In this document: piece by piece, positions 9,238-64,000 of the stretch
Position numbering within the stretch: the first letter of the stretch is position 1
Layout of the letters: every line of letters starts with the position of its first letter
Origin: Cephalotus follicularis
Lineage: Eukaryota; Streptophyta; Magnoliopsida; Oxalidales; Cephalotaceae
Direction: 5' to 3'
Assembly: GCA_001972305.1 (NCBI GenBank)
Contig: BDDD01002123.1
Coordinates: 90,503-154,502, forward strand
Length of the DNA stretch: 64,000 nucleotides
Made by a program: the position numbers and the translations under genes
The notes under the pieces: generated by a model
The model's input: only the letters and a program-made list of their open reading frames with translations
Told to the model about the DNA's origin: nothing
Databases searched by the model: none

Positions 9238-9249
9238 TGGTATCAGAGC
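9238..9249 (+). other. tRNA-iMet primer-binding site
   Basis: The sequence tggtatcagagc is the standard copia primer site complementary to the 3' end of initiator tRNA-Met. It directly follows the 5' LTR. Confidence 0.9.
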
Positions 9250-11660: not shown

Positions 11661-11667
11661 TTTTGAG

Positions 11668-12834: not shown

Positions 12835-13057
12835 GATGAGGAGGAATTAGAGGTTGAACCCTCTAGAGACATAATTGGGGAAGGATACCAACCTGTGAAA
12901 GGATCTCAGGAAGGACTCCCCTGGATAAGAGATCAGACCGAGTTTCAACAACGCTTAAGAGATATGGTTTTCTCATTGAGGGCACTGATGAACTCAACGA
13001 CATCGATGATGCGAGCTTGTCAGCTACGAGGAAGCAGTGAAGAGCACTGAATCCGGG

Positions 13058-14195: not shown

Positions 14196-14506
14196 GCTGG
14201 AGGAGTTCGAAGCAGGAAACTACTGCGGACTCCCCCACAGAAGCAGAGTATGTTGCAGCCTCCGATGCCGCTAAGGAAGCTGTTTGGATGCGAAAGTTCA
14301 TTGCTGAACTCTACGTGGTTCCTACCATTGCACGTCCGGTTGTGGTATTCTGTGACAATGATTGGGTTGTTGCACAAGCCAAAGAGCCACGGTCTCATCA
14401 TCACTCCAAACACATATTATGGCGATATCATCTTATCCTGGAGATCATTGACAGAGGAGACATCACCTTAGAGAGAGTTTCCACAGAGGCAAACTTAGCA
14501 AACTGA
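14192..14506 (+). pseudogene. copia RNase H, broken
   Basis: The stretch contains TEAEYVAASDAAKEAVWMRK, followed by VVFCDNDWVVAQAKEPRSHH and the SKHI motif typical of the copia RNase H end. It removes RNA from the RNA-DNA hybrid. It lies directly upstream of the polypurine tract and 3' LTR. Confidence 0.85.
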
Positions 14507-14592
14507 CTTACCAAGGCTTTGAGCAGCATTGTACTTGAGAGACACAGAAGTGCAATGGGCTTAGGTTACAGGTCTTTGTGGCTTGAAGGACC

Positions 14593-14603
14593 AAGTGGGA
14601 GAT
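14593..14603 (+). other. polypurine tract before the 3' LTR
   Basis: The sequence aagtgggagat lies immediately upstream of the TGTTAGATTA start of the 3' LTR. This is the standard copia plus-strand primer form. Confidence 0.8.
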
Positions 14604-18698: not shown

Positions 18699-19102
18699 TG
18701 ATAAGGAAAAATTCTTAGATAAATAAGGCACTGACACGTGTCACATGGAGCCATAGACACATGGGCAAATCGCCCAAGATCATGGTGATATGGGGAGATA
18801 ACTCCTCCATTCAAAAATAAGGAAACGACCGAGAATTCTGGCATAATCCAAGGGACCAATAACCTCCTCCATGATGTTAGCAATTCAGAGACAAATAAGG
18901 TCAGGTAAGGCTATTAATACCCCTAAGAAAGACTATGGGGGGGAGTAAAACCTCCTGAATTTTTGATAATTTGCTTGTTTTGTGTAAAAGGAAGACCAGA
19001 GAACCAAAATCCAATACATTCTTCAGACCATCCGACGCTTTTCCCAATAAATCAAATCTCCACACGTTGAGGACTGTTGTGAAGTTTATTTATGCATCAA
19101 CA
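18699..19102 (+). repeat. 3' LTR of the Tat-like element
   Basis: It begins TGATAAGG and ends CAACA, matching 929-1398. The ATATA duplication follows at 19103. Confidence 0.9.
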
Positions 19103-19304
19103 ATATATAATGATTTAGGAGAACCAATTCTTAACCGAGATAATGAAACAATTGAAGATGCAGTAGCAACATTAATTTATAATATTACTGAATATTTTAT
19201 AGGATCCAATACATTCTTCAGACCATCCGACGCTTTTCCCAATAAATCAAATCTCCACACGTTGAGGACTGTTGTGAAGTTTATTTATGCATCAACAATA
19301 TATA
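19009..19304 (+). repeat. exact 101-bp duplication of the LTR end around a 94-bp filler
   Basis: Positions 19009-19109 and 19204-19304 are identical base for base by eye. They cover the last 94 bases of the 3' LTR, the ATATA duplication and two more bases. Between them is unrelated sequence (19110-19203). The arrangement looks like templated double-strand-break repair with filler, and it is recent because the copies are identical. Confidence 0.85.
19110..19203 (+). other. 94-bp filler with a coding-like open frame
   Basis: The filler is open in the plus frame and encodes about 31 residues including NRDNETIEDAVATLIYNITE. Tone and composition faintly recall the coat-protein region of endogenous pararetroviruses (Caulimoviridae), but this is a memory-level resemblance only. 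It could equally be a scrap of any gene. Confidence 0.2.
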
Positions 19305-19311
19305 TATACAT

Positions 19312-19367
<56 letters not shown>

Positions 19368-19385
19368 TTATTTATTTATATATAT
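19303..19385. repeat. (TA)n microsatellite
   Basis: A nearly pure TA run of about 80 bp, with a few tac and tta interruptions, begins at the ATATA edge of the duplicated LTR end. Confidence 0.95.
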
Positions 19386-20564: not shown

Positions 20565-22519
20565 CCAAGTGTTTGTTTCATTAAAAAGTGGATAGATTAA
20601 CACTTAATCTAACACAAACTAGCAAACCCTAAAACGGAATAGATTTACTACAAACAAAACCTATTGCCAAGATCACTTTGATCAACACTTTAATATACTA
20701 AAACAAAAGAAAAATGAGAAGACAAAGATGAATGTAACACTTACTTTAAAGTTTCTTTACTCCACCAAATCTTTTCAAATCCTATTTCACTTCAAGGCAC
20801 TTAAAATAGGAAAATGTATGATATCGCCAAGATGATCCACACCAAGAGAGAAGAAGAGTGAGTGTATGGGAGAGAGAGTAGAAATTTCTGCCTAAGGGAG
20901 AAAAAACCAAGGAGGAGATTCTAGTCTCTAATGCCTTAGTCTCTTTTTTCCTTATGGTGAAGTGAACTTTTAAGTTTTAACTCATAATACACTTCCTTTA
21001 TATAGTAAGTGATGGTCAAAGCCTACTACCATATGACTTCACTAAGTCAAAGGTAAATAAGTCATGAGAATAGCCAACACGATTAATCTTATTAATCATA
21101 TAGCTTATCTCATAAGCTAATTCAATTAAACTAATCACATTAGTATAATTAATTAATCATTTAATTAATTATCTCTCTCAAATTCTCTTGCATTCTCACA
21201 TTTGTATTGTGTGTGACTCTATGCATTCATAATTATGCAGGACATAGGCATAATCATAACTCTTATGATTGTCTAATTAGACATTCCTAATCGAATTTGA
21301 AACTTATAATCAAAATAAAAGAATTAACCCTGGTTTTAATTCTTTGTTACACGTGATTAATAATCAATTAATCCCGGTTATCCTAATGATCATGTCACGC
21401 CCCGAACCGTGGGTTGGGCCCACGACTCAACACGTGGCATTCCATGTACTTCCTTAATTTATTTCCATTATGTAAATACCAGCCAAAATAAAACTTTTAA
21501 TATAAAACCATTTATCCAATGTGTGGATATATACCCAGATCCAAAACAGTACATATAAAATACACTGCCACAGCCCGGCAGGATATAAAAAAAAACAATA
21601 CATAAGTATCCTCTACAATTCTATCCACTGGAGCGCACTACTGAGGAGGAGGAACTTACATTTCTCTTTGTCTTAGCTGCTGCCGAGGTGCTCCACTGAA
21701 GTCTGCACCTGTACCTGAACCTGGCCCATTCAGAGAATGGGTCAGCAACCCTGGGGGTTGTGTAGGTAACCACATGTACGGCACATACCAGAGGAACAAA
21801 CAATACAAGCAGAGGAAGAATGCGTAACATAAGCGTAAACCTTGACATAACACATAAGCCAATCCTTTGTCCTCGGACTACTCTACTCAAGTCATACATA
21901 CCAACCACATACATAAACATTACAAAGGAGTCAAGTCCGGTATCCTATGGTCTGGTCATCTACATGGTTCACCTTCAGGCTCACCTGCCAGCGGAATTCA
22001 CTCTCGGGATCCCCAGCTGAGCGGAATTCACCCTTTGCTCACCTGCCCGAGGAAGTCTCCCTTAAGATCACTTGCTAACGGCGGAATTCACCCTTAGGTT
22101 CACCATTTACAATTTTGCCCGAGGATCACCTGCCTAGCGGAGTTCACCCCTTTGGTTCACCTGCTCGAAGAAATTCTCCCTAGTTGGGCTCACTGCTTGG
22201 GACAATCACTATGTGGATTCGCTCCTTAAGCTCACCTACTATAGGACGTCTCATACCAATCATATATCATTTGGCAGAGGAGGAACTCTGCTCAGCAATG
22301 CACTGACCCTTTGTCAGATTGGCTCCCTTAGCACTGGGCATTGCTCCCATACGCATACTTGGTCTGCTCTTATACTTATCCTTCGGCAGAGGAGGAACTC
22401 TGCTCTGCTCGGACTCCTGGTCCGGCTTGGCACTCCTCAGGCGCCCTGCCTTACTCTTCATTCTTTCTTGTACTTGGGAAAAAGATCCTCTCAAAGCATT
22501 AATCACCTCTAGCCTTTAT

Positions 22520-24183
22520 TGTTAGATATAGTGACCCGACAAGCCATTAGATGGACTGTCATTTTATATATGTTATTGTATGAAACAATCTTATTCCTTA
22601 TATATGATGCGTGCTAAATTTGTTATGGCTATATCACTTGTATTTTATCACATAATTGAAGTAGTTTATTAATTACCTACTTATACTTGTGATGCCCTGA
22701 CATAAGGTTGGATGCCTGGCATGGAGGCTATGAGACTTGTTACCTTATTCTTTATATCAAATTAGTTCCAAGTCATAGGTTCACTTTGTGGGCATTAGTG
22801 AACCGGATAGACTTGCGCGTATGTTGCCTGCTCATGGAATTGGAGGATGGATTCTCTCACTACCATATGTGTTGGACACTAGGGCAAATACGTGGTGCGC
22901 GCTAGGAGCGTGTACACTGAACTGAACCGACGACTTAGAAAATCTGGGGTTTATGAGGTGTGGGAAAATTAATTAGATTAATTTTTCCATATGGATAATA
23001 TTTGGATATTATTCCAATAGCATTTAAATTGGTCAAAGACCATTTAGAAAGGCTAAACTGGACCCAAGGGGTATTTCGGTAATTTATGAACACCTCTTGT
23101 TTTAACCAAGATTTAAAGGGTCCCTGCATTATAATGATTAGATCTTTAATATGTTGGACATATTAAGTCTTGGTGTCAAATATCAGTTATGTGGATTTTG
23201 CATTTTGTGGAAACACATATGTTTGATCTTACTTAACCAATATTCGAAGGGTACATGAGATCACTAAAAGAGTTAGACTCTTAATGCTACACTGGCCAGA
23301 CAAAGCGTCGACGTCTTTTAGAAAGACGTCGATGCTTAACCTTTTTAAAGACGTAGATGTCTTTTAGAAAGTGTCGATGTTTTTAGTGCCACATTGCATG
23401 GGCATCGAAGCCCTTTGGAAGGCATCGACGTCTTTGAGCAGAACGTGCAACCTGTGCACAAGCTCACTTCGTGGGCACGTTTTCTCTCTCATATCCAGTA
23501 GCCATCTCCTGTTCTTGCATGTTATGGGAACGTGGGGATCATGGCCACAGACTCCCTAGGAGTGAGGACCATGATCTTTAGTGAATGGGAGAGTGGGTGA
23601 GAGAAAAAGAGGGCTAGTAATAAGCATTTTATGCATAAAATGCAAAGAGGAGAAGTTTGGTTTTTGCTGGGCAAGTGACTTTGATTTTCTCTCTGAAGAG
23701 TGTGTTCCTTTCATCTGTGATACACTAAGCAAGAGCTTATCTAGGGTGGATTGATTATTGACTTCATTGGTCAATATCAATTTACCTTTTCTAAGCTTAG
23801 TGAGAGAGAGAGAGAGTTCATACACTTTGTTTTTGGTTATTGTTGGTTGGATTGCTTGTTGTTCCAGAGACTTGGAGAAGATTAAAGAGGGAATCTACTC
23901 AAGCGTGTAGCGGCAAAGAAAGAAGGAGCCTTCACCCGCTGGTATATCTCTTGGTCCTTATCTTCTTGCCATGCTTGTGTGTCACCATTGTTTGCTATGG
24001 TGACACCAATTCAATTCTGTTGATGATGTGATGATCCATGTGGTCTGTGGACATGCCTTATGGACTGTTTTTTATTTTAATTGGGTGTTCTTCCGCTACC
24101 ATGTTTGTATGTTTTGTTTTGTTCTACACCCTATATGCCTTTGTCCATCTTAGGCTCCGGATTCGGTTTATCCGTTTCCATCA
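22520..24183 (+). mobile_element. solo copia LTR inside the gypsy LTR
   Basis: The 1,664-bp unit begins TGTTAGATATAG and ends TTTCCATCA, with the target duplication TTTAT at 22515-22519 and 24184-24188. No internal copia sequence accompanies it, so it is a solo LTR left by LTR-LTR recombination. A relative lies at 61813-64000 and was the key to detecting the reversed text there. It is the youngest layer in this nest. Confidence 0.9.
23305..23430. repeat. GTCGA-centred motif cluster in the solo copia LTR
   Basis: Six variants of the gcgtcgacgt type occur at about 20-25 bp spacing, separated by cttttagaaa-like spacers. Compare 500-577 and 52805-52880. Confidence 0.75.
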
Positions 24184-24217
24184 TTTATAACTGAAGAGGT
24201 TCTCGGGCTCATGCTTT

Positions 24218-25446: not shown

Positions 25447-26538
25447 CTAGGATGAAAACAAGTGGGGGTATCTAGCTTGCATATCATCTTCTCTTTCCCA
25501 CGTAGCTTCTTCCACTTCGTGGTATTGCCATAGTACCTTCACTAACGGAATGGTCTTATTCCTCAGCTGTTTAACTTGCCGGTCGAGAATCTGGATAGGT
25601 ATCTCTTCGAAACTCAAATTCGTTCTCAACTCCAGTGGCTCCCATTATAAAACGTGAGAAGGGTCGGGATGGTATTTCCACAGCATCGAAACATGAAACT
25701 CATTGTGTACATCCGCCAGGCTGGGTGGTAAGGCAAGTCGATAAGCAACAGTGCCCACCTTCTCAAGGATCTCAAAAGGTCCTATAAACCGAGGGGTCAA
25801 CTTCCCTTTCTTGCCGAACCTCATAATTCCTTTAGTCGAATAGACTTTAAGGAATACATGATCGCCTACAGCGAACTCCAACTCTCGTCTGTAGTGATCT
25901 GCATAACTTTTCTGTTTTCTTTGTGCTGTACGGAGTCTTTCCCGGATAACCTTTGCCTTCTCAATTGTGTCTTGCACAAGTATGGGTCCCACTAGACTCT
26001 GTTCACCCACTTCGAACCAACAGATCGGGGTTCTGCACTTCCTTCCATAGAGAGCCTCGAACGGTGCCATACCAATACTGGCTTGAAAACTATTGTTGTA
26101 CGATAATTCCACTAACGGTAGATGGTCTTCCCAGCTACCTCCCCAATCTAAAACGCATGCCCGCAGCATGTCTTCCAGAGTCTGAATAGTCCTCTCAGAC
26201 TGTCCATCAGTCTGGGGATGGAAAGCTGTGCTAAAGTTTAGCTGAGTACCAAAAGCTTCTAGCAGTTTTCTCCAAAACCGCGATGTAAAACGGGGGTCTC
26301 TATCAGACACCACACTGTTTGGTACTCCATGGAGCCTTACAATTTCGGCAATATACAAATTTGCTAGTCGTGTGAGAGAAAAGTTCATCTTGATCGCAAG
26401 GAAATGTGCAGACTTGGTAAAGTGATCAACGATTACCCATATAGCATCACGGACATTCCTTGTTCCAGGCAGTCCTGTCACAAAATCCATCGTTATGTGT
26501 TCCCATTTCCACTGTGCCATAGGCAACGGCTGTAACAA
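25447..26538 (-). pseudogene. gypsy integrase core and chromodomain, broken
   Basis: The minus strand encodes an integrase core with ITMDFVTGLPGTRNV, VVSDRDPRFTSRFWRKLLEA and HPQTDGQSERTIQTLEDMLR, which give the D,D,35E layout. Further on are the GPFEILEKVGTVAYRLALP (GPF/Y) region and, near 25450-25560, a chromodomain stretch KVLWQYHEVEEATWERED. Integrase inserts the cDNA. The chromodomain is known in chromoviruses to bias insertion towards heterochromatin, which fits this location. The region is a fossil with few breaks. Confidence 0.9.
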
Positions 26539-26568
26539 TCCTGCTGGTCTTTGGTGTTCTGCTTTAAC

Positions 26569-27360
26569 CTATTGGCATGTCAAACAGGAAGCAACATACT
26601 CAGCTATCTCCCTCTTTATGTTGTTCCACCAATAGTCCATCTTTAGATCCTGGTACATCTTGGTACTTCCCGGATGTATGGAGAAACTGAAGCGATGCGC
26701 TTGTGACAACAGCTCATCCTTCAGCTCCTTGTTGTTAGGAACACATATTCTGCCCTGATATCGGATTAATCCATCACCTTGTATAGAGAAATCCGGTTTT
26801 AAACCTCCATCATTGCTCAAGGCTATCTTAAGCAAATCCCCATCATTGCTCTGCGCTTCACGTAGTCGGTCCATTAACCATGGACGTGTCTGAATATGAG
26901 CAATGGTTAGGCAAGCTAATCGACGACAAAGGGCGTCTGCAATAACATTAGCTTTGCCTGGATGGTACTGTATTTCACAGTTATAGTTGTTGAGCAACTC
27001 CATCCATCTTCGCTGCCTCATATTCAGGTCCTTCTGTGAAAACAAGTACTTTAGGCTCTTGTGATCGGTGTACACCTCGAACTTGGTACCATATAGATAA
27101 TGCCTCCATTTACGCAGAGCGAACACTATCGCAGCTAACTCAAGATCATGAGTAGGATAGTTCTCTTCGTGGGGCTTTAACTTCCTTGAGGCGTATGCGA
27201 TCACTCTTCCGTTCTGCATAAGGACACATCCCAGGCCACTGCCTGATGCGTCACTGTATACAACGAAACCTTTGTTGCCTTCTGGTAAGGCTAGGACTGG
27301 CGCAGTAGTCAGCCGATGCTTTAACTCCTGGAAACTCCATTTACAAGTATCATCCCACAC
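26569..27360 (-). pseudogene. gypsy RNase H and integrase zinc-binding region, broken
   Basis: RNase H is visible as [20 protein letters not shown], then [20 protein letters not shown] and [20 protein letters not shown]. The H2C2 zinc-binding part of integrase follows with [20 protein letters not shown] and VASCLTCQ. Neighbours on both sides belong to the same polyprotein. Confidence 0.9.
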
Positions 27361-27483
27361 AAAAGCTACATTCTTCTATGTCAATCGAGTTAGAGGTGTT
27401 GCTATCTTTGAAAAGCCTTCTACAAACCGACGGTAGTATCCTGCCAAACCGAGAAAGCTCCGGACTTTCGTCACATTCGTTGG

Positions 27484-28740
27484 TCATTTCCAGCTCTTTA
27501 CTACTTCAATCTTCGTAGGATCTACTAACAATCCAGCACTGGGTATAACGTGACCAAGGAATGTCACATCTGATAACCAGAATTCACACTTGCTGAACTT
27601 GGCAAACAACTGGTGGTCTCTGAGAGTCTGTAATGCCATGTGCAGGTGTTCACCATGCTCTTCCATGGACTTCGAATATATCAGAATGTCATCTATAAAC
27701 ACCATGATAAACTGATCCAGATATGTACTGAATATCCTGTTCATCAGACTCATAAATGCAGCAGGGGCATTGGTCACCCCGAAAGGCATTACTACGAATT
27801 CGTAGTGTCCATACCATGATCTGAATGCGGTCTTCGGAATATCCTCTACTCTAGCTCGGAGCTGGTGATATCCGGATCTCAGATCCAACTTAGAAAACAC
27901 TGAAGATCCCTTTAGCTGATCAAATAGATCATCGATGTGCGGCAGTGGATGCTTGTTCTTGACTGTCACTTTGTTCAACTGTCGGTAATCGATACACATT
28001 CTCAGGGATCCATCCTTCTTTTTCACGAACAAGATTGGTGCTCCCCAGGGGGATACACTGGATCTGATGAAGCCCTTGTCCAACAACTCCTGTAGTTTTA
28101 CTTTCAATTCCTTTAACTCAGGAGGGGCCATCCGGGAAGGAGATGTCGATATGGGAGCTATTCCTGGCAAAAGATCTATAGCAAACTCCACATCTCTCTC
28201 AGGAGGTAAGGATGTCAGCTCTTTTGGAAACACGTCCAGGTATTTACAAACCACAGGAACATCCTCCAACTTCGGTATCCATTTACTGTCATCCGTAACA
28301 TGTGCCAGGTAAGCAACACATCCCTGTCTCAAGAGTCTGTCAGCCTGAATAGCAGATATCATGGAAACCGGCTGATGCTCTAACGTCTCGATAAACTGGA
28401 ACGGAGACTGTCCTGGCAAATGGAAGGTTACAACCTTCCTATTACAATCTACATATGCATTATATACTGACAGCCAATCCATACCGAGAATCAAATCAAG
28501 TTTGCCCATCAGCAATATTATAAGGTCTTCCAGAAGAACATGTCCATTAATCTCGATGGCACAAGATCTACACACCCACCGGGAGGTAACCGACTCTCCT
28601 ACCGGGGTGCTGACCTCTATCGTAAAAGGTAAAGGCTCGGGCTCCACATTCATATGACTTATAAAATGAGAAGCAACATATGAATGGGACAAGCCTGGAT
28701 CAATCAAAGTTCGTGCCAAAAGCTGAGATACATAAATCAT
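27484..28740 (-). pseudogene. gypsy protease and reverse transcriptase, broken
   Basis: The minus-strand frame starts in the retropepsin-like region, and [20 protein letters not shown] marks the protease end. The reverse transcriptase shows [60 protein letters not shown] and the catalytic [10 protein letters not shown]. The residues around that motif are the common gypsy form. It copies RNA to DNA in the particle. This is the longest open stretch in the window (418 codons), which fits a fairly recent insertion. Confidence 0.9.
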
Positions 28741-28800
28741 ACCTCAAATCACTGAGGGTGATCCAGCTGCAGCACGCAGATCCATAGCATAAACTCTTCC

Positions 28801-30212
28801 TTATACCATAGGTGCAGATCCCATCGGCTGTTTGCCACGGTCTCCATGTAAACTAGTGCTAGGGCGGCCTTGCTGGAAACTTCCCTGAGGTCGGTTCGAA
28901 CCTTGTCCTGCTTGACCTCCTAGGTTGAACTGATTCTGTGGACACTGAGTAGATATATGATCAGAAGCTCCACAAGTCCAACACCTATCATCTTTCCACC
29001 AGCAATCCTCAGAAGCATGGTTGGTACGACCACAATGCATACAGGGTTCAACAGACTCCTGTTCATCATCGGCAGGTCTAGAGGAACCTCCTTGAGAAGC
29101 TATTCTTCGCTGACGCCGCCATCGTGCATCACGACCGAGTCTTCTCTGTTGAGAACCACGAGATTGTCTTCCCAACCTGAAAGGTCCTGCGGGGCTACCA
29201 ATACTACGGGGAGATTCTCCCTGCCTTGGACTGCTATGGTATCTCGACCTTCTGGATTTATTGCTACTACCAGAACTCCTTCCTGACTGATCACCAGGAG
29301 GGGTAGGTCTTCTTTGGCCTGTCTGGATCTCTAAACTCTGGAACCACTGAGCCAAGGCTTCCACTTCACGTGCCCTATTAGATAACTCAAAAAAGGATCG
29401 TAGGTGTAGGGGCACTAACTTTTCTTGAATGTCGGGTCAAAGTCCTGCAAGGAACTTCTTAGCCTTCCTTGAATCAGTATTCACCAAATATGGAGCTATC
29501 CGTGATAACTCGATGAAGTTGGCCTCATACTGGGCCACAATCATATCTCCCTGTGTCAGTCCCAAGAATTCAGCCTCTCTCTTATCAATTTCTACCTCAG
29601 GATAGAATCAATCATTAAATTATGATTTAAAGGTATCCCAATAATAGGTCGTTACAGATATCTCCCACTGGGATTCAATCATCTTCCACCAGTGTTCAGC
29701 TTCACCTTGTAGCATATACGTTGCGAACACAACCTTCTGAGAGTCAGAACAGTCCATGACTTGAAAGATCTTATCCATTTGCATTAACCACCTCTCCGCC
29801 GATATACCATCAGGATCTCCCATGAAGGCTGGAGGGTTTAACTTCAGAAACCCGATCAAAGGGTTCTCCTGTCGCGAAGGTTGGTCGACTGATCTCCTTG
29901 TAGCTACAGCCTGCCTAGCTGGTCGAGCGGCTGATGTCTGTTCGGAAGCCTCTGCTGCACGTCTAGCTGGTACAGCAGCAGGTGGTTGTTCATCTTCATC
30001 CGATTATCCTTGGAGAAATTCATGCATTTGCTTATCATGGCGTGCATGCTCCTCATGAATCCTCTTCGTTCCTCTCTGGCAGGAGCAGAAGGCTCTACTT
30101 CTTGAGGTGCATTAACTTCTCCTTGTTCTTCGACACCTCTTTTTGAACGGGTACATCTAGCCGACGGCCCAGACCTCTCTCCTCGTACGCTTCTACTTCG
30201 TCGTCCTTCCAT
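28801..30212 (-). pseudogene. gypsy gag with zinc knuckle, broken
   Basis: The ATG near 30212 on the minus strand begins an Arg/Ser-rich N-terminus. The capsid-like core is near 29620-29860 (FLKLNPPAFMGDPDGISAER and VFATYMLQGEAEHWWKM). An Arg/Ser/Gly-rich part follows near 29100-29415, then Cys-rich knuckles near 28960-29050 (CMHCGRTNHASEDCWWKDDR and CWTCGASDHISTQC). Two adjacent CCHC-like clusters are visible. The frame is broken. Confidence 0.85.
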
Positions 30213-30321: not shown

Positions 30322-32663
30322 TGTCACGCCCCAAACCGTGGGTTGGGCCCATGACTCGACACGTGGCATTCCATGCACTTCCTTAATTTATTTCCATTAT
30401 GTAAATACCAGCCAAAATAAAACTTTTAATATAAAACCATTTATCCAATGTGCGGATATATACCCAGATCCAAACAGTATATATAAAATACACTGCCACA
30501 GCCCGGCAGGATATAAAAAAACAATACATAAGTATCCTCTACAATTCTATCCACTGGAGCGCACTGCCATGGAGGAGGAACTTACATTTCTCTTTGTCTT
30601 AGCTACTACCGAGGTGCTCCACTAAAGTCTGGACCTGTACCTGAACCTGGCCCATTCAGAGAATGGGTCAGCAACCCTGGGGGTTGTGTAGGTAACCACA
30701 TGCACGGCACATACCAGAGGAAAAAACAATACAAGCAGAGGAAGAATGCATAACATAAGCGCAAACCTTGACATAAAACATAAGCCAATCCTTTGTCCTC
30801 AGACTACTCTACTCAAGTCATACATACCAACCACATACATAAACATTACAGAGGAGTCAAGACCGGTATCATATGGTCTGGTCATCTATATGGTTCACCT
30901 TCAGGCTCACCTGTCAGCGGAATTCACTCTCGGGATCCCCAGCTGAACGGAATTCACCCTTTGCTCACCTGCCCCCAGAAGTCTCCCTTAAGATCACCTG
31001 CTAACGGCGGAATTCACCCTTAGGTTCACCATTTGCAAGTTCTCCCGAGGATCACCTGCCTAGCGGAGTTCACCCCTTTGGTTCACTTGCTCGGAGAAAT
31101 TCTCCCTAGTTGGGCTCACTGCTTGGGACAATCACTATGTGGATTCGCTCCTTAAGCTCACCTACTATAGGACGTCTCATACCTATCATATATCCTTTGG
31201 CAGAGGAGAAACTCTACTCAGCAATGCATTGACCCTTCGTCAGATTGGTGCCCTTAGCGCTGGGCATTCCTCCCATACTCATACTTGGTCTGCTCTTATA
31301 CTTATCCTTCGGCAGAGGAGGAACTCTGCTCTGCTCGGACTCCTGGTCCGGCTTGGCGCTCCTTAGGTGCCCTGCCTTACTCTTCATTCTTTCCTGTACT
31401 TGGGAAAAAGATCCTCTCCAAGCATTAACCACCTCTGGCCTTTATAACTGAGGAGGTCCTCGGGCTCATGCTTTGGGATCCTCGGACACATAGCAGAGGA
31501 CAACCACGTTTGGGATCATCAGACGCATGGCAGAGGAAAGCCACGTTTGGGATCCTCGAACGCATGGCAGAGGAGACCACGTTTAGGGTCCTCGGACGCA
31601 TGGCAGAGGAGACCACGTTTGGGGTCCTTGGACGCATGGCAGAGGAGACCACGTTTGGGGAAATCCCCAGCGCCTGGGGAGTACTGGCTCCTCTGCATAT
31701 GCTCCTTGAGCTAAATGCTCAACCCTAGACTTAGTAGAACTGGTAGGACACTTAGTCCTCCTCGGAAGTATTTGTTCCCCGGGCATTACGCTGCTCAGGC
31801 ACCATGCTCCTTGGGCATTATGCTTCTCAGGCAATATGCCCCTCGGCATTATACTCCTTGGGCGTTTACTTCATCTCTAAGTGCTTTCTAAGCACTGAGG
31901 CATTTCACATAACGGTTCCAAGGTAAAAGGACAGGATCCTAATCTATCAAACATAAACATTAACAAAATAACACACACATGCAACAATCGACCAAGGCAG
32001 ACAACACACACACAACACAAGCATGCTGGTAGGCACTCGGACATGGAGCAACCTACCTGAAAAAATGGTTGGAAGAGATTGTCTTCTTCCTTCTCAGATT
32101 CTGGACTCCCTTCTAGCCGAGGACTGCTACACACTTAAGCTTGCCTTATTCCTTTACTCTTGCACGATTTTCTTTCTTCCAGGAGATGGGCGTATATATA
32201 CAGGGGTAGGAATTCCCCCGAGGAAGGCCCCAGCTTGTCTTCTTCTTCATTTCACCAGCATCTGGCCCCATCTCCCACTTCTCTCACCTTTCTCTCGATT
32301 TCTCTAGACACAGGAGTATGAAAAATGGCAACAGTGTGTCCCTCGGCATTTTCCTCCTTTTATGGACACAAGTGGAAGAATCCAGAACTTCCTACACAAA
32401 TCTAACGAATGCAGACCTTGTTTAGTGCTTGGGCCGACCTCTTCCCTTGGGCCTTCTCTTCTTTACATTTTTAAGCCCAACACCTTTTTATCCTATTAAC
32501 TTCGGCCGAAAAGGGAATAAAATAATGCTTAAGCCCAATGTCATATATTAAACTTCATTAAGGCCCAAATAAATACATCATAATTATCGGGCCCAGCCCA
32601 AAAAGGAAGGAAAATAATTACAAAACCCAATAATAATTCTTTATAATATTTAGGGCTCTTACA
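30322..32663 (-). repeat. 5' LTR of the chromodomain gypsy
   Basis: This is the uninterrupted 2,342-bp LTR, starting TGTCACGCCCC and ending GGCTCTTACA on the plus strand. A 36-37-bp array lies at 31475-31660. Target duplication GATCA follows at 32664. Confidence 0.9.
32192..32201 (-). promoter_or_regulatory. possible TATA box of the gypsy LTR
   Basis: A tatatata-type string on the minus strand is kept in both LTR copies (the other near 24938-24950). It lies about 460 bp into the LTR in element sense. Conservation is weak evidence, because the two LTRs were identical at insertion. Confidence 0.3.
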
Positions 32664-38110: not shown

Positions 38111-38913
38111 CTCGGCATGCTCGGGTGCATGCGTGTTAGAGCACTCAACTTGGCATGCTCGGCGCTTGGTGTGCTAGGACGTACCACCTTGCAAGCTCGG
38201 ACGCATGACGATAGCGTGCTTGGGAGCAAGGCATGGTCGACGCATAGCAAGGCATGCTCAGCACTTAAAAATGATATATATATATATATATATATATCAT
38301 TCACGACTCAGGTATCCATTTGTTCCAGAACCAGAAGACACATTTCAATCATCCTTCCTTTGCATTATTTGCCTAATTCTAGTATGAGCAATCACATCAT
38401 CATAGTATTCATAAAAATACATATTAAGAGTAAAGGCTCTGAGTAGGAAGTAGATCCTACCTTAAATCCTCTAGAGTTTGATTATGCTTTCCTTTGCTCA
38501 GCTAGTCACGCGCCACTTGCTTCTCCTTTGCTTCCAGGGGCATTCTTTCCTTGTCTTTTTTCAAGGTTGGAGGTGAGGGGATTAAATGAGAGTGGGAGAA
38601 GTGAGACAAGAAGTCTCCAGATACTGTCATCTCCTTGTCTCTTTCTCTCCAAAATAGCAGCAGTCGTCCCCTCACTCACTATTTCTGTTTTTATAACCAA
38701 CCAAGGAAGGCTCTAGAATTCCCTGGACAAATCACTACTGTTTCTTTGCAAAAGTGGCCTAGTAATATTGTGATGGTTGACCCAACGTCTCAATTTTCCT
38801 TATACCAGCTTCGGCCCAGTACCAAGGAATCCATTCCTAAGACCAAAAGTGCTATTCCTTATTAGGAGATTATTTTTACACATGCCTTCATTCATAAAAA
38901 AATTCCAGGTGTT

Positions 38914-46224: not shown

Positions 46225-46916
46225 TAGGGCCCATTTGTTTGCACTTATTAAAATGCTTATTATTGTTTATGCTGTATGAATAAGTAAAAGATTCAATAAG
46301 TGCATTTGTTTGAATTTTAAAATAAGCGCTGAATATCACTTATTACTTCTTATCCAAAAAGTTTTATTTATATCACTTATTAGATAAGAGAAAGTGCTGA
46401 TTGACTATTTGGACAAAAATATCATCATACTATTTTTAAAATGGTAGATCAACTATTGCGTTTTTTTACATTTTTTTCATTCTTTATCAGACTATCTACT
46501 ATCATTGCGTATTATTTAATTAATTTTATTGTCGGGTGAATTGTTAAAAATGATAACAAATAGAAATATGAAAAAAGAAATTACTCATGCTAATAAATAA
46601 TATTATTATGTTTAAATTGATTATTTATATTATATCAGTAATTAATATAAATTTAAGAATACTTTTATGTTAGAACAGAAATAATAACCAACATTTATAG
46701 ATTACTCAAATTTTTATAAAATAATATATTATTTAATATATAGTTCAGAAGGTCAAAATAGAAAATTATACATATTCAGATATTTTAATCAGCACAGTTA
46801 TAAAACAAATATATTCAGTATTCAGCATTTAGTTACTGCTTCTTAACTATTTAGCATCAATCAGATGTTCATCAGATTCAGTCACTTATCACTTAACGTA
46901 AACAAATACACCCTTA
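46225..46916. mobile_element. probable hAT-type MITE
   Basis: The left end TAGGGCCCATTTGTTTGC and the right end, which reverse-complements to TAAGGGTGTATTTGTTTACG, form imperfect terminal inverted repeats of the hAT form. The 690-bp interior is AT-rich and non-coding, with cacttatta-like subterminal repeats. No clear 8-bp duplication could be read, so the exact ends are uncertain. Confidence 0.55.
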
Positions 46917-47437
46917 GTAAATAATTTTGAACGACGGGTTAACAACGGAGGTTATTTATTGCTTGCTCCTAAAAGTTAGGGAGTGTTCCATATATTTGAA
47001 AAAGTAAAGAGTTAGTGCTAACACCACTAAACCTAAGTTATATTTTGTTGTATTTATATTTTCTTATCTAATAGCATATATTGAAAGCAATAGACAAGAA
47101 AGACGAGAGTTGCCTTTTATAATATTGAAATTCTAATACGTCACGTCATATAAACTTAATGATACATCATTTTAAATTTTTAATAACTAAATTACATCAT
47201 TTTGTCAATTTTATTTTAATAATTGAAATTACGTTAGTTTATAAATTATAATATAATGACTAAAATTACGTTGTGCTACTACATTATGCATCTTCAATTT
47301 ATGATTTTAAACATTTAAAAACAAAAATTACAATAGTTTATCATATTATTCACCCTCTAAATACTAGATTACATTGTTCATTTAATAACAACTATATATA
47401 TTCTATATTTTTTTCTTCTAAGAAATTTTTTCCAATT
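46917..47437. other. AT-rich spacer
   Basis: I see no gene or element ends. The stretch has repeated attacatcattt and attacgtt phrases, possibly a decayed repeat. Confidence 0.4.
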
Positions 47438-48264
47438 GCTTTTGACAACGCTCGGACCCAGCCCTCTGGGATCCGTCGTGCCCACTACGAGGCCAAACCT
47501 CCTATTAGAGACTCACATCGTAGGTTCAGTAAAACAGAACTTCAGGAATACATTTTTAAACAGAATGAATATAAAAAGTTTAACTAAAAACAATTTAATA
47601 AACAGAAGAATTTTTTTGAAAAGTTAAAAATAAACTAAGTATAAAATTTTACGAAATTTAGACATGTAGTATCCGTTTAACGGACTTATAACCGGATTTG
47701 AAAAAAACCTGATAAACACTTCTATCTTAAAACCCAACAATACTGTCGTCCGTCGGCCGATTTCAATAACAAAATAAACATAATAGATTTGGGCCCCGCC
47801 CAACTCATCAGAAACAGAAAACTAATTATCGGACTCAGTCCGCCAACGGAATAAAGTTTTTAAATATAAACAATACAGAAAAAGAGCTCAACTCATTAAA
47901 CATTAAAGCAGTAAATGAAAATTTAAAATCGTAAAATTGAACTTTTCAACAAAAACTTGAAAATAATTCTAACTCTTAAATTTTTAAGAAAATCGGGCAT
48001 GTAGTATCCGTTTATCGGACTATGCCCCCTGTAAAGAAAACACCATTTATAAATTGGGCTCAGCCCTCAGCAGACCACAAGAAAAATAGAAAATATGCAT
48101 GGGTTGGGCTCCGTCTCAACCATATTATCAAAGCACGAATCATAATTAGGGCTCGGCCATTCAAAACAAAACTATAAAAACATTTATCTAAAAACATAAA
48201 TAAATGCATAATTTAAATGCTAACCTCGTGGATGATATGCACGTGTTGAAACTCTGGTAGGCAT

Positions 48265-50520
48265 GCCCTCGTGGTCTCATAGACACATATTCTGTCCTGA
48301 AACTTTATAATTCCGTCACCATGGATAGAGAATTCGGGCTTCTAACCATCCTGTTCATTCAATGCAGCTTTAAGCAAGATTCCATCCACACTTTGCCTCA
48401 TAGACAGGTTCATTGAGGAGGAAAATTGCTTTAAACTTTTGCGATCTGTATATGCATCATTAAACTATGTACCATAAAGATAATGTCTCCATTTGTGTAG
48501 CACACGGACTAACGCTGCAAATTCTAGGTCATGAGTGGAATAACCTACTAATGAGGTTCCCACTTCCTTGAGACATAGGTGCTCACTTCCCCATACAACC
48601 TCAAAACACAATTCAAACCGTTTCCTTTATAACTGTCATCCCATACAACCACTGTCCTTCCTGTATCGATCGGTTCAAAGTGTAGCAATCCGTGAGAATC
48701 ATTCGACAATGCAGCAGTAATAGCCCGCTAAGCCTAAGAAACTACGGATCTTAGTCACATTGGTTGGTCGTTTCCAATCCTTAAGTGCTTCCATCTTTGT
48801 TAGGTCCATAGATGGACCGGCACTGGAGACAATGTGACCAAGGAAAACTACTTCCTATAACCAAAATTCATATTTGTTGAACATGGCATACTACCAACGA
48901 TCTCCCAAGACCTGTCATGCCCAGCGTAAACGCTTCCCATGGCATTCCGTAGACTTGGAATGAACTAACATATCATCGAAGGAGGTCACGATGATTTGGT
49001 CAAGATATGGATTACACACCCTATTTGTAAGGTTCACAAATGTAGTAGGGCATTGGTCACCCCAAACGACATTACAATCCACTCATAAAGTCCATATCGT
49101 GACTTGGAGGCTACTGATAACAATACATATCCATATAGATCCATCCCTGTAATCACTTACAACTCATCCACCGACAACATTAAAAGGTTTGCCATCATAT
49201 AGGGTCGGCTATCTCTATTACACACGACTCACACACCCATTCGAGATGAACAGATTCTCCTATTGGGGTGTTAACTTACATAACATTCTATAAAGATTCG
49301 GGTTTCACATCAACAGGACATAAGAATTACAAGGAAATGCATGAATAGAGTGAACCCAGATCCGTAAGAGCCCGTACTATCTATAATGAGATAAGAATAA
49401 TACCTCCAAATACTTAAACAGACCCTTCTGCAGCCCCTTTGGTCCATAACACAACTCTACTCTTCTGGAGGTGTCGATCCCATAGACTGTTTACCTCGAT
49501 CTCTTCTCACATGAAAAGGTGAACTAGTATCAGGGTGGTTCTGATACCGCTGTCCACAATCACAGCTTGGCTGATAGCCGATACTCAGATCTTGATGAAA
49601 ATCTCCCTATGATTGACCCATACCCTGTCCTTGCTGACTCTCGAAACCATACCGTTCATGGGACACTCTCTAACCATATGATCCGAAGCTCCACAATCCA
49701 TACACTGGCCAGCCTTCCATCAACAGTCACCACATGCATGATTTGTGCATTGGTAATGCACGCACAGGTCAAAGGAAATCTGATTACCACTACTAGCAAG
49801 TCTAGAGTGACCTCGCTGAACTGTCATCCTCCTCTGGTGCCTATGTCGAAAGTCACACCCTTTTCTCCTTTGCTGCAAACCTTAAAGCTATCTTTGGAAT
49901 ATTTTCAGCTCTAACCCTTAGCTGATGATGTTCCAACTTAGAGAACACTGAAGCACCTTTCAATTGATTAAACAATTCATCACTGTGCGGTAACCGGTAC
50001 TTGTTCCTAACAATACTCTGTTGAGTTACGGATAATCAATGCACATTTGGAGGGATCCATCCTTTTTCTTCACAACAAGATAGGTGCTCCCCAAGGAAAA
50101 ACACTTGGTCTAAAGAAACCTTTATTGAATAACTCCTACAATTGAACTTTCAATTCCTTCAACTCAGGAGGGGCCATATGATAGGAACTCTCGATATCGA
50201 TGCCATCCCTGGGAGCAAATCAATCACAAACTATGTATCCCTCTCTGGAGGTAAGGATTTCGACTTATTTGGAAATACATCCGGATATTCATAGACAACT
50301 GGAACATCCTCCAGCCTCGGTACCCATTTCCTGCCATCGATCACATATGTCAGGTATCCACTGTAATCCTGCTTCAAAAGTGTGTCAGCATGGATAGCGG
50401 AAATCGTATGAACTGACTAGTGCTCTAAGGTTCCAATAACTGAAACGGAGACCGTCCTGGCATACTGAAGGTCACAACCTTCCCGTAACAGTCCACGTGA
50501 GCATAACGTGTTGCTAACCC
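48265..50520 (-). pseudogene. decayed gypsy internal region (RNase H, reverse transcriptase, protease, gag pieces)
   Basis: By nucleotide similarity to the chromodomain element, 48265-48700 matches the integrase/RNase H area (cf. 26745), 48700-49110 reverse transcriptase, 49110-49400 protease, 49440-49850 the gag knuckle area, and 49870-50510 the protease to reverse transcriptase area (cf. 27850-28480). The parts are not in the usual order and no long frame remains. It is an old, heavily broken relic. Confidence 0.65.
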
Positions 50521-51048
50521 ATCCATCCCATATCCATCTGTTCCATATCCATCCGTTCCATAACAATAGAAAGGTTAACTAAATACACATACTGTCCCAT
50601 ACCAACATATATAAGTAGTTAACCATTTACTATTGTCTAACTATACCATTCCATACCCACTGTACCATCTCGTAACTGTATCAGTCCTTAACCGTGCCAT
50701 TCTGTAATCATACCATAAGCCCATACCATAAAACCATGGGACTAGGTCAATTTGCCTACCCTTGGTAGCTCCCTTCCTTTTTCCTTCCATATCCACTTGT
50801 ATAAGAGACAAAAGAATCAGCTATCGATTTCCATAATCATTATCCAAGACAATTACAGAACTACAATCCATCAATATCACTCAATTCCATTAATAGCAAA
50901 CTTATCCATATCACTTAACCTCTAAGAACTTAACATATCACTTATTATTATTCCGCAACTCCAAATGTCTTCAAATACCACTTTATTCTCAACCACTTTC
51001 AATTTCCAACAGCCAAGGACCCTATCATGGCGTATCCAGCATAGACCA

Positions 51049-51060
51049 GCTCTGATACCA
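51049..51060 (-). other. tRNA-iMet primer-binding site of the decayed gypsy
   Basis: The plus strand reads gctctgatacca three bases before an LTR edge at 51064, matching the layout at 30304-30322. Confidence 0.75.
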
Positions 51061-52088
51061 AACTATCACACCCTGAACCACGAGGAAACCCCCACGACTT
51101 GACACGTGAGATACCTCCCTTCAATCCCCTCATATCATATCAATCATACTCCAAAAAGTTCTATAAATTTAAAACTTTAAACAATCATATCACATCAGCG
51201 AAACAATCAATTCATAAATATTCTAACTCTTAGAATTTCTCAAAAATTGGGCATGTAATATTCGTTTATCGGACTTATGCCCCCTGTAAAGAAAACACAA
51301 TTTATATCTTGGGCTCAGCCCTCAGCAAACCACACTCCCGTAGGAGAAAAACATAATTATATCAGTCTAATACCTTAAGTGATGAACCCATGCATATCCA
51401 ATACATCAACACACATATCATAAGCACTGCCACATGTCGACAAGTCGATAGCTGAAATAAAACATATCTCTAAGATTGTCTTTGGAATGTCTCCTATACA
51501 TATCATGGGGCTTATAAATCCGTACAAATCAGATATATATACACAAGGCCCAGATAAGAAACTCATACAATTCATATAAGCATCCATAAACAAAACCATA
51601 CATAAGATCTGGTTACCATTCATAATCTGCTACAGAAATCCGTTCGTCTCAATCTTATTTAGTGCAGTCCATCATCTGGGCCTGACCCATTCCATTACAA
51701 TGAAATGGGTCAGTGACATATAGTCGGGTAGGTATACTACATGCTATGTATGCAACAGTATAACAGTGTGCCATGTGATGCAACCGTATAACAGTATGCC
51801 ATGTAATACAACAGTATAACCACATATATATGCGTGGTATGTTATATGCATGAATGCCAGTTGCGGACAGTCCCTAAACGGGGGTATACTTGGCTAGTCC
51901 TAATCACATCAAAGGTCATAGGTCTGCAGACACTCCATAAAATAATCCATCACCATCCATGGGGATAATTAATCCGTAGGTCTGAGTACTACTCTGCCCC
52001 TCCGGCCTGAGATAGTACTGCCATCGACTACCTACCCTTTCGGGGTCGTAACCGAGTGGGGGAGAGATAACGCTGATCACATCATTGC

Positions 52089-57467: not shown

Positions 57468-59060
57468 ATGCCAAGAAGAATCAACAACCAGTATGGACCC
57501 ACCGGTAGCCGACAACAGGAGATTCCACCTCTTCCTCCTGAAGCCGGTCAAATTACGGCTCCGGAGCAAGCTCCCGTCATTGGGGAGCAACTCAATCAGC
57601 TCCTCTAGGGAATGGAGCATCTCACAAATTTGTTGGCAACCAATCTAGCCAACCAAGTCGAGGCCGGACCGGCTCGGGCAAACAGCCGAGGATAAAGCGG
57701 TCCTGCCAGGCCAGCGGTAGAGGTAGGGTGCCCACGAGGTGCCAGGCAAAACCCGCTGAGGGGAGACATGCTTCCCCCGAGGCGGTCAGGGGATAATATT
57801 CCCCTGAGGAGGATACCTGGGATTGATATATCTCAGAGGACAGAGTCCTCAACTGCCCGGGATCAGCCCAACAATCCTAGAAGAGTGCATCCCGAGCATC
57901 AGGCAGTGGAGGTGGATCCCCAAGGGGAAGCTAGGGGTGCAGAGGAATCACGAGTGCGATCCAATGCTTCACGCAGGGCAGGAATAGTGCAGGGAAGTAG
58001 GATAGACCACCCGGCCATACTGGTCGGGGGATCGCAAGTTTCTAGCAGGGCTAGGAACATTGAGGATGTGGAGCGAGAGATGAACAAAAGGCTTGCCGAG
58101 GTAGAGAGAAGGCTCCAAGGAGCCGAGCAGCCGAAGGGATGACTGTCTGAGGTGAGCAACATTAGCGCCCACCCCTTCGTATCCGAGATCATGACGGAGC
58201 GTATCCCCAGCGGATTCCGGCTCCCAAGTCTCAAAAAATATGATGGGTCCACGGATCCCATCCAACATGTACACACCTACATTCAAACCATGTCGGTGCA
58301 CCAAGCCTCAGACGCCACACTTTACCGAGGATTCCTGACAACATTGACTGGTGCAGCCCAGTCGTGGTTTTCTACCCTGGCTCAGGGATCAGTGGAGAAT
58401 TTTGACCAGTTTACGGAACTGTTCGTAACCAAATTCCTCAATAGTACTACGCATAGGAGGAATTCTACCCATTTGATCAACGTGGTGCAGGGTAGAGATG
58501 AATCATTGAGGGACTACCTCACCATGTTCAACAAGGAGTCTCTCACAGTGAAAGACCTGGAGTCGTCCTTTGCCCTGGTAGCTTTGAATAGTGGATTGAG
58601 GAATAACTGCTCCTTCACTTTCTATCTTTCGAAGAAACCTGCAGTGGACATGGTAGACTTGCTGAAGAGAGCAAAAAAATATGTAAATGCTGAGGAAGAG
58701 ATGGCAGCCAGGAAATAGAAAACACCCTGGTAGGGCCATCAGGCGGAGAAATGGGCGAAATGCGCCCAGAAAAAAAGAGAAGAGGAATGAGAGGTCCGAG
58801 CTGTCTGAGGAAGACCTCAGACACAAGCTCTCCAGGAGGGATGATTCACCCAGGGGAGGGGCGCCGATCCTGGCCTACAACAACTTTGCCCTCCTCCTGG
58901 ATACACGTACCAGGATACTTGTTATGGAAAAGGACAAGGTCCCCATCCAATGGCCTGCGCCACTGAGGTTCCTAGCAGAGAAGAGGGACACAGAGAAATA
59001 TTGTCGGTACCATTGTGACCACGGGCACGATATAGAGGAGTGCAGGCAACTGAAGAATTA
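57468..59060 (+). pseudogene. gag of the second Tat-like element, broken
   Basis: The first ATG after the primer site is at 57468. The capsid-like region at 58150-58720 includes GFRLPSLKKYDGSTDPIQHV, QSWFSTLAQGSVENFDQFTE and SLRDYLTMFNKESLTVKDLE. A knuckle CRYHCDHGHDIEEC lies near 59005-59050. The same landmarks exist at 1442-2890. The frame is broken. Confidence 0.85.
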
Positions 59061-59947: not shown

Positions 59948-59956
59948 CTTGGAGAG

Positions 59957-60838
59957 GTGGAGAAGGGGGAATTAATAACATTCCTCCAAAATAACAGAGA
60001 TGTAGTTTCCTGGTCGGCAGAGGAGGTCCCTCGGATCAGCCCAAATGTAATGGTTCATAAGCTAAGTGTGGACCCAATGAGGCCTCCGACCAGGCAAAAG
60101 AAGAGGAACTTCGCTCCTGAGAGGCAGCAGGCGATAGCCGAGGAGGTGAGCAAGCTATTGCAAGCGAAGTTCATTAGGGAGGTGCATTACTCAGACTGGC
60201 TGGCGAATCCAGTCCTGGTCAAAAATGCAAATGGCAAGTGGAGGATGTGCATTGACTTCACAAACCTCAACAAAGCTTGTCCCAAGGATCACTTCCCTCT
60301 CCCCAAAATCGATCAATTGGTGGATGCAACCTCAGGGTACAGAATGTTAAGCTTCTTGGACGTATACTCAAGGTACAATCAAATTCCCATGTATGGGCCC
60401 GACGAGAGCAAGACAACTTTCATCTTAGACTGGGGGATGTATTGCTACAAGGTCATGCCCTTTGGGTTGAAGAATGCAAGAGAAACCTACCAACGATTGG
60501 TCAACAAGATCTTTGAGCCTCAGATCGGGAGAAACATGGAGGTTTACATCGACAACATACTTGTCAAAACGCCATCCAGGAGCCCCCATATTAAAGACTT
60601 GGAAGAAACATTTGAGGTACTGAGAAAATATAAAATGAAACTCAATCCTTCTAAGTGTACTTTCGGGGTCACCTCTGGTAAGTTCCTTGAATTAATGGTC
60701 TCAAGCAGAGGAATAGAGTCCAACCCGGAGAAGATATCAGCATTTCAGAGTATGAGGCCTCCCCAGACCATCAGGGACGTTCAAAAACTGAACGGAAAGA
60801 TAGCAGCCCTGAGCAGGTTTGTTTCAAAATCAGCATAG
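59957..60838 (+). pseudogene. reverse transcriptase of the second Tat-like element, broken
   Basis: A long frame shows FAPERQQAIAEEVSKLLQAK, NGKWRMCIDFTNLNKACPKD, FPLPKIDQLVDATSGYRMLS and VMPFGLKNARETYQRLVNKI. Further on come the catalytic-motif region after 60540, then KYKMKLNPSKCTFGVTSGKF. This is a standard gypsy reverse transcriptase. Confidence 0.9.
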
Positions 60839-60919
60839 AAGTGCCTCCCATTCTTCAAAGTGCTCAAGGATCCCAAGGGATTTTCCTGGTCCGAAGAATG
60901 TTAAGCAGCCTTCGATAAC

Positions 60920-61800
60920 TTGAAGGAACACCTGGCTTCCCCTCCTCTGATCTCAAAACCCAAGGATGGGGAAGACTTGTATTTATACCTTGTGGCCACC
61001 TCGGGGGCAGTGAGTGCAGTGCTAGTCAGGGAGGAGGAGAAAGTACAAAGGCCGGTGTACTACGTAAGCAAGGCCTTAAATGATGCTGATGGGAGATACC
61101 CAAAGGTGGAGAAGTTCGCCTATGCTCTGATCATAGCGACCAGGAAATTAATGCCATATTTTCAAGCCCACACAATCAAGGTTCTGACTGACAAACCACT
61201 CAAACAAGTTCTAGCTAAGGCTGACACCTCAGGAAGATTAATCAAGTGGTCAGTCGAACTAGGCGAGTATGATGTAAAGTCCGATGCTAGGCCAACAATC
61301 AAATCAGAGGTCCTGGCCGACTTTGTTGGAGATAATACACCCACAGAGTGTATGGAGGAGGACCCCTATGAAAGTGAGAGGGGGTTATGGAAGCTATCCA
61401 TGGATGGCTCTTTCTGCATCAATGGCAGTGGAGCAGGGCTGGTAATAACGAGTCCAGATGGTTGGGCTTTGGAGTATGCTCTGAGGTTTGGTTTTAAAGC
61501 TACAAACAACGAAGCTGAGTGAGAAGCTCTGATAGCCAGGCTGACAATTGCAAAGCACTTGGAGGTGCAAAAGATAGAAGCCTCCAGTGATTCTCAGCTA
61601 GTGGTTGGCTTGGCAAGTGGAGAGTACGAAGCCCGAGAAGACTCAATGGCCAAGTACTTATCACACTTCCAGAGTTTGAAGTCAGCCTTTGAAGTTCTAA
61701 GAGTTGTGAAAGTTCCTAGAGCAGAAAACGCTTGAGCAGACCAGTTATCAAAACTAGCCACGACGGAGGAGCTGGAAAAAAATCAAACCGTGCTAGTAGA
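60920..61800 (+). pseudogene. RNase H plus additional archaeal-type RNase H, broken
   Basis: The first RNase H shows LYLYLVATSGAVSAVLVREE, then RKLMPYFQAHTIKVLTDKPL and a WSVELGEYDV-type end. A second domain begins near 61385 with LWKLSMDGSFCINGSGAGLV and ALRFGFKATNNEAE, and continues with SSDSQLVVGLASGEY near 61585-61625. The second domain's DGS..G..GAG layout is that of the extra RNase H captured by Tat elements. Confidence 0.85.
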
Positions 61801-61812
61801 CTACCTGGACAG

Positions 61813-62112
61813 TGATGGAAACGGATAAACCGAATCCGGATCCAAAGATGGACTAAGGCATATGGGGTGTAGAACAAAACAAAACATACAAACATGGCAG
61901 CGGAAGAACACCCAATTAAAATAAAAAACAGTCCACAAGGCATGTCCACAGACCACATGGATCACCACATCATCAACAGAATTGAATTGGTGTCACCATA
62001 GCAAACAATGGTGACACACAAGCATGGCAAGAAGAGAAGGACCAAGAGATATACCAGCGGGTGAAGGCTCCTTCTTTCTTTGCCGCTACACGCTTGAGTA
62101 GATTCCCTCTTT
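61813..62112 (-). repeat. terminal 300 bp of a copia LTR, minus orientation
   Basis: The sequence begins TGATGGAAACGG and is the normal reverse complement of the last part of the LTR at 22520-24183 (up to about 23883). It interrupts the second Tat-like element. Confidence 0.9.
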
Positions 62113-64000
62113 TACCGAACTCCCAGTTCACCCTCTAACAATCTATATCACTGGGCTGTTCGGTAACCTACCTGACAGTAAAATATAGACAAGAACATAC
62201 TTTGTTAGAATAAGGAATATATATACTACGCACGATTTAAACAATACCGATATAGTGAACATAAAATAGTGTATTAACTTCATCAAATAATTAATGGATG
62301 AATATGAACACTACGGGACTGTATTCCAACCTACGGACCGTACCTCCGACACTCTGACCAATGGAATAAGGAATACAGTTTAATCAAGGTTCAGTATCCA
62401 AGTGAAACACCCGTAATCACTTGGCCTATCTGAACGCGCATACAACGGACGAGTACCTTAACCTCCTACCTAAGAGAGTGATGGTAGACACAACCTGTGA
62501 TCCCGTTTATGCCCCACGCGCGACCCTCGCACATGTGACTTGTCCTGGGCGCATCCTCTGTGATAAACCTATCAGCGATAAGAGCACAGTCATCACTGAG
62601 GATGAACAACGCCAACACATATTCACTAGTAGTGAATCGCTCAAGAGTTTGAGCAGACTAGGAATCTGGACTCGCTGATGAGATATAACATACCTCTGCC
62701 AATACGAAACTAGAGGTGGAATGGGTCAGGAATGCGTCCCGACCGTTAGCCCACCAGAAACCCATACTAGCTTAGATATGCTTATATTCACTCACGCGTT
62801 ATACCCTAACAGTGTGGACTCGCTTCCACTAGCCGGGATAATACCAGACTAATATGAAACCTGAATACTTTAGGAACCGGTTCCAACTCCATCTGACCTT
62901 TAATCTAAAGGCCTCTCAAATGGTTTCCAGGATCATTACTAGTCTATAAAATCGGTAACTCCATGATAGATCCCAACTGTGTATAGGAATGGGATCTGGA
63001 GTTAGCCCCGGTTCGTACTGTTCCCTAATATCACGTGCACTTGGCTGCTGAATCTTTTAGACCCCAAATACTCCACACCCTTTTAATTAATCTAATTAAA
63101 AAGGTAGACCTATTATAAACCTATAATAAGGTTATCGTAAATTTAACCAGTTCCTGGTAAATCTTACCGATTTGGCCTGGGTTCCCCATAAAGCCATTAA
63201 ATACTTGTGGAGAACAAAATTGGTTCTAAAATTTCCCAGGGACGGAATATTACTAATCTAGAAATTATACAACCTGTATAATTCAGAACCACAGTTTATA
63301 GCCAATACACCTAAAACGTAAAACACCTTTGTGTATACAAACTAGAATGAATTGGTTATAAGCTTCCCATGTACTCTAGTGATTTTCTCAATCTGAGAAT
63401 TACGAAGTGACCGGTCTGTTTCGCAGCTGCAGAAAATCTTTCTGCAGCTACGAATTGCAAAAATTTCTGCAGCTACAGAAAATCTTTCGCAGCTACAAAA
63501 ATCACGGTGTAACGTACCCGCAGCTACAGGAAACCTTCCGCAGCTGCAGAAACTCGTCTTGCACGTTGGACACGTGCTCGAGTGAAGCACCCGTGTAAAA
63601 GAGAGAGTAGAGGTCGTAGGTAGAGGGTAAGAACGTACAATACCCTTGCACCCCTAGTACCGGTGTCTGAGGGATCCTCACTCCTGGTACTAGGATTCAC
63701 TTACCCTCTCACCCTCTCTCTTTCTCCTCCGATCATTATTCGTAAAAGACGTCTTTTACTTACCCCCTCTTCAAACCAAAAACGATCCGTTCACTGAAGC
63801 TAAAAGAGAGACGTCTCACACAAGGAAAGTAGACACTATGTGGTTCGTTCTCGAATAGATCCCACCTAACTAATAACTGAAGTAACCAGTTATAGTTAAA
63901 TGGAAAAGATTCGAATCACTCTCTCTCTCTCTCAAGTATGTGAAACAAGAACCAATAACGACCAACCTAACGAACAACAAGGTCTCTGAACCTCTTCTAA
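62113..64000. other. text written backwards: rest of the copia LTR in 3'->5' order
   Basis: The plain complement (not reverse complement) of this stretch reads as the polypurine tract and forward copia LTR. Complementing 62138-62157 gives tgttagatatagtgacccga, identical to 22520-22539. Complementing 63936-63955 gives ttcatacactttgttcttgg, against ttcatacactttgtttttgg near 23818. The far end (64000 read backwards) continues exactly where 62112 stops. The stretch is string-reversed, so no reading frame or motif in it is biologically meaningful as printed. Confidence 0.9.

Follow-up and report, generated by a model that had tools for sequence, protein, structure and literature searches.

The final 1,888 letters of a 64-kb window are probably a retrotransposon LTR reversed as text without complementation

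The stretch of DNA analysed here (64,000 nucleotides, hereafter the window) ends in a block, 62113–64000, whose letters run in the wrong order. We put at roughly 0.9 the probability that these last 1,888 letters were reversed as text, without being complemented, after assembly, through either a deliberate edit or a handling bug, with the 64,000-letter window as the most probable place. Reversing the string 62113–64000 once, in place, reproduces the layout exactly at both ends, and we found no other single operation that fits. Such an operation would have its start point as its sole free parameter. The flipped, uncomplemented order of the block (to which we assign no strand) is seen in the alignment of its complement, in the continuity of its junction and in its k-mer polarity. 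The block is very probably an artefact rather than a real biological feature, and nothing in it would be functional in the form printed. As a corrupted stretch of text it has no biological importance; its relevance is to data hygiene.

We compared the block in all four orientations with a solo LTR at 22520–24183 (plus strand), a reference copy bordered by TTTAT target duplications at 22515–22519 and 24184–24188. An initial annotation of this DNA had claimed that the plain complement of 62113–64000 matches this copia LTR. This was confirmed: in local alignment with 22518–24183 the plain complement scored 2374; it was identical at 1319 of the 1362 aligned positions, in runs of up to 131 bases. 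The remaining orientations scored 134 (forward), 163 (reverse complement) and 145 (plain reverse). The maximum over 30 mononucleotide shuffles was 152, so that the reverse complement stood slightly over it and the forward and plain-reverse scores lay inside the shuffle range. In the comparison by which the annotation proposed to judge its claim, the plain complement was far better than the reverse complement. BLAST placed the plain complement in two pieces, 22518–22928 and 22923–23883 (E=0), while the best non-self match of the other orientations reached 41.9 bits (E 5.6e-5) and was a short one in the palindromic GTCGA cluster. A chance or low-complexity resemblance would have to account for the identical runs and for a score of 2374 where no shuffle exceeded 152; its probability is effectively nil.

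The match had been described as spanning nearly the whole length of the block. That holds over the 1362 aligned bases but not for the 496 bases at 62543–63038, which the 22520 copy lacks. These bases belong to the same LTR family, also in wrong polarity: up to 63026, their plain complement matches two diverged LTRs, at 14828–15518 (67.7%) and 6950–7656 (66.3%), by BLAST. A long match of 62270–62500 to 22640–22870 was indeed found, except that 62270 corresponds to about 22650 in the alignments. The phrase "complement without reversal", used in the annotation, is right relative to the 22520 LTR; relative to the minus orientation of the copy itself, the operation is reversal without complement.

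The bases immediately before the block are undisturbed. Positions 61813–62112 are an ordinary reverse complement of LTR 23884–24183 (292 of 300 identical; BLAST 97.3%), as had been claimed, and are, on the minus strand, the 3' end of the LTR copy to which the block belongs. The block and this tail have diverged from the 22520 copy to a similar degree (43/1362 and 8/300), as expected for a single LTR copy. A normal minus-strand LTR at 61813–62112 would also suit an ordinary inversion of LTR sequence or its inverted insertion. Such an event, however, predicts a forward match to the 22520 LTR, and the forward score of 134 lies in the shuffle range; we consider the event vanishingly unlikely. An ordinary genomic inversion of the block was rejected because its forward alignment to the LTR is at shuffle level. 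Among 25 transitions between the block and the 22520 LTR, 10 fall in CpG context when the sequence is read in LTR polarity and 4 when it is read as printed; for CHG the counts are 6 and 3. These counts lean towards an artefact, but they are small and carry little weight.

The annotation had called the junction exact, with base 62112 continuing at 64000 read backwards. We joined the string-reversed tail to the left flank and scored 13 breakpoints. At breakpoint 62112, where the tail starts from 64000 and runs backwards, the spanning 60-mer matched the LTR at 60 of 60 positions, while the twelve other breakpoints between 62106 and 62118 gave 34–41 matches of 60, so the description was accurate to the base. 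String reversal implies that the left flank, at 62112, runs on into the block's far end without a break, and it does so exactly. In the alignment, LTR base 23884 pairs with 62112 and LTR base 23883 with 64000. The LTR's natural 28-mer for the junction site occurs within the window in the 22520 copy only, with up to 3 mismatches allowed. The perfect score at 62112 alone, together with the 62112/64000 pairing, indicates that the block was flipped about its own centre and that its right-hand limit coincides with the window's final base. Because base 64000 pairs with 23883, the segment stops at the window edge; a longer segment would have shifted the pairing upstream of 23883 by its overhang.

By arithmetic, if a reversed segment as long as the block were placed at random in 64 kb, its end would coincide with the last base in about 1 of 62,000 placements. 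Since base 64000 is exactly where the block stops, an edit or a fault on the window file is favoured, and it is from this edge coincidence that we would place the reversal step there and not upstream. The same letters would result from a fault in the source record, if contig or scaffold building had reversed a terminal piece uncomplemented and the window ended where the record ends; a source contig ending at 64000 would explain the edge coincidence equally well. This origin is unlikely, however: it requires that the record, or the fault, end exactly at window base 64000, and it is established knowledge that reads of wrong polarity would fail to overlap normal reads in assembly. The annotation had itself pointed to a file or assembly fault or to a deliberate edit, and it finds support in the complement-only match, the exact junction, the k-mer polarity and the ending at the edge. 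String-handling errors in sequence files take the form of reversal without complement or of complement without reversal. They share with the block the letter operation, the abrupt, base-exact boundary and the ending at a file edge, and we saw no difference between the two. Among the matches listed in a literature search, judged by titles and the starts of abstracts, we recognised no account of reverse-without-complement file errors.

We know of no DNA process that yields reversed polarity, which would require 5'-5' and 3'-3' strand joins or parallel synthesis. The annotation had likewise held that no known process gives a polarity-reversed copy. Established chemistry bears this out, and the layouts expected of an inversion and of swinger DNA are both contradicted here. 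If the printed letters were real DNA, so that 1.9 kb of retrotransposon end had been copied or rejoined with its order flipped and its bases uncomplemented, either synthesis in parallel orientation would be needed, or 5'-5' and 3'-3' joins that were later made normal. We judge this extremely improbable.

Swinger DNA, a claim of Seligmann's, would arise when A<->T and C<->G are systematically exchanged during replication, leaving a stretch complemented but unreversed. Relative to the 22520 copy the block is complemented without reversal, which is the same kind of signature. An in-place exchange, however, predicts that 62113, following on from 62112, corresponds to LTR base 23883 and that LTR positions fall from there. 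Only 99 of the first 400 printed letters are identical to this prediction in ungapped comparison, which is chance level, and the plain-reverse alignment scored 145 against the shuffle maximum of 152. It is 64000, and not 62113, that continues from 62112, and the same segment would, in addition, have had to undergo an ordinary, exact inversion. Swinger replication is highly improbable as the origin of this block.

PMC4942731 (2016) states that swinger DNA had been detected solely for the rule A<->T + C<->G, and the case cited there is the mitochondrial 16S gene of Kamimuria wangi. In PMC4942731 and PMC7027195, swinger replication is an in-place exchange, and the authors argue against swinger sequences being artefacts. 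Swinger DNA under this rule resembles the block in that relatives are described as matching only after complement exchange and in its sharp switches (PMC4942731). It differs in that the exchange occurs in place with the order kept, whereas in the block the whole order is turned round about its midpoint. An error of polarity in a sequence file would mimic the A<->T + C<->G rule when compared with a relative in the other orientation, a reason for caution with the swinger literature. A reversed, uncomplemented tail would resemble the published swinger signature, leave base counts and GC content unchanged and hide the LTR from ordinary similarity searches. The combination of four-orientation alignment, breakpoint continuity and strand-symmetric k-mer polarity separates a string reversal from an in-place exchange or an inversion without reads.

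K-mer polarity was scored independently of homology. Strand-symmetric Markov models of orders 1–4 were trained on the rest of the window; training for the block excluded the matching parts of LTR-family copies, and each of the 64 comparison windows was scored by models trained without it. For orders 1–4, the block had printed-minus-reversed log-likelihoods of −26.5, −36.1, −41.4 and −47.0. None of the other 64 half-overlapping 1888-base windows was negative at any order, the lowest values being +0.7 to +2.7. The observed-to-expected ratios of CpG and GpC were 0.85 and 0.66 in the block as printed, 0.66 and 0.85 in the block reversed, and 0.52 and 0.92 in 1–62112. In a scan made without homology, the maximum-scoring segment of reversed polarity ran from 62086–62096 to 63999–64000 for k=2–5; the training covered most of the scanned sequence, a bias towards normal polarity outside the block. 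In its second quarter, which corresponds to the 496 bases at 62543–63038, the block was neutral to slightly normal in k-mer polarity (−0.6 to −8.1). The reversal of this quarter rests on the alignment to diverged copies (66–68%) and on the continuity of both sides. Apart from this quarter and a weaker segment at 46881–48022, k-mer polarity is reversed in the block and normal in the rest of the window.

The weaker segment was the second-strongest of reversed polarity, at 46881–48022 for k=2 or 46889–47761 for k=4 (score 39.6 versus 100.6 for the block). The score of 39.6 for 46889–47761 exceeded those of all 10 simulated order-3 Markov sequences (16.4–30.9), so an order-3 Markov null does not explain that segment. 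Aligned with 47757–52000, the part 46881–47756 is related in normal polarity (score 64; the other three orientations, 28–31), and 46881–48022 was rejected as a second reversed block because this part aligns to its neighbours in normal polarity. The segment 46881–48022 is AT-rich. When the whole window was searched against its own mirror (BLAST, E 1e-3, low-complexity filter on), the one match outside the block was 38257–38309. This is a 53-base, imperfect mirror-symmetric repeat (81%) that matches itself reversed.

Read in reverse, the block appears as an unremarkable minus-strand LTR beside a putative polypurine tract. The underlying sequence most likely represents the 3' LTR of a copia-type element that lies on the minus strand and whose interior would be beyond 64000. 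The annotation had placed the LTR start at 62138, correctly: TGTTAG is read there in the plain complement, and the complement alignments give 62138–64000 as the rest of the LTR, in wrong polarity. The remaining bases, 62113–62137, lie outside the LTR on the polypurine-tract side of the element; they probably represent the end of its interior with the tract, also in wrong polarity. None of these parts of the block is assigned a strand. The plain complement of 62114–62164 matches 14579–14632 in a related element (82% over 55 columns), with an ungapped identity of 17/24 for 62114–62137. In element polarity the 25 bases end in GTGGGAGAT and are followed by TGTTAG, the LTR start. Standing beside the LTR start, GTGGGAGAT is what we take to be a polypurine tract of copia type. 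The same arrangement of tract and LTR start is printed normally at 14579–14632 of the related element.

Copia-type plant LTR retrotransposons resemble the block in their TG...CA termini and in the GTGGGAGAT tract adjoining the LTR start; as far as the window shows, the block differs from them in the polarity of its printed letters alone. TG...CA ends and a 5-bp target duplication are present in the reference copy at 22520–24183, and the block copy has one flank inside the window. The copia-type element was most likely inserted into a gypsy-type element, whose domains are gag at 58143–58715, RT at 59948–60835 and RNase H at 60905–61519. Within the LTR, a CAGCT cluster at 63419–63503 (GTCGA in LTR polarity) is an imperfect tandem repeat of about 25 bases; by eye, a similar cluster is present in the 22520 copy.

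The related element, 6760–17099, resembles a copia-type retrotransposon that has long LTRs, and it is related to the block's LTR. It has a gag_pre-integrase match (E 2.5e-13) and, at 11629–12387, an integrase match that reaches 30.4 bits, just under the Pfam cut-off of 32.6. Positions 6760–9237 and 14604–17099 are a direct repeat pair of about 2.5 kb, 92% identical, on either side of the interior that carries these two matches.

The repeat that flanks the solo LTR (22515–24188) recurs at about 30322–32663 (94–95%) without the LTR, where 31441–31445 is the natural empty site. Exact scans of viral_contigs with the LTR's natural letters and with the printed junction gave 0 matches, which says little because the window, by its retrotransposons, looks like plant nuclear DNA. 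Elsewhere, a 101-base direct duplication (19009–19109 and 19204–19304) is 100% identical, and its second copy runs into an AT microsatellite at 19298–19385. At 25645–29436, four long minus-strand open frames stand in a row and, by eye, resemble a gypsy-type polyprotein interrupted by stops.
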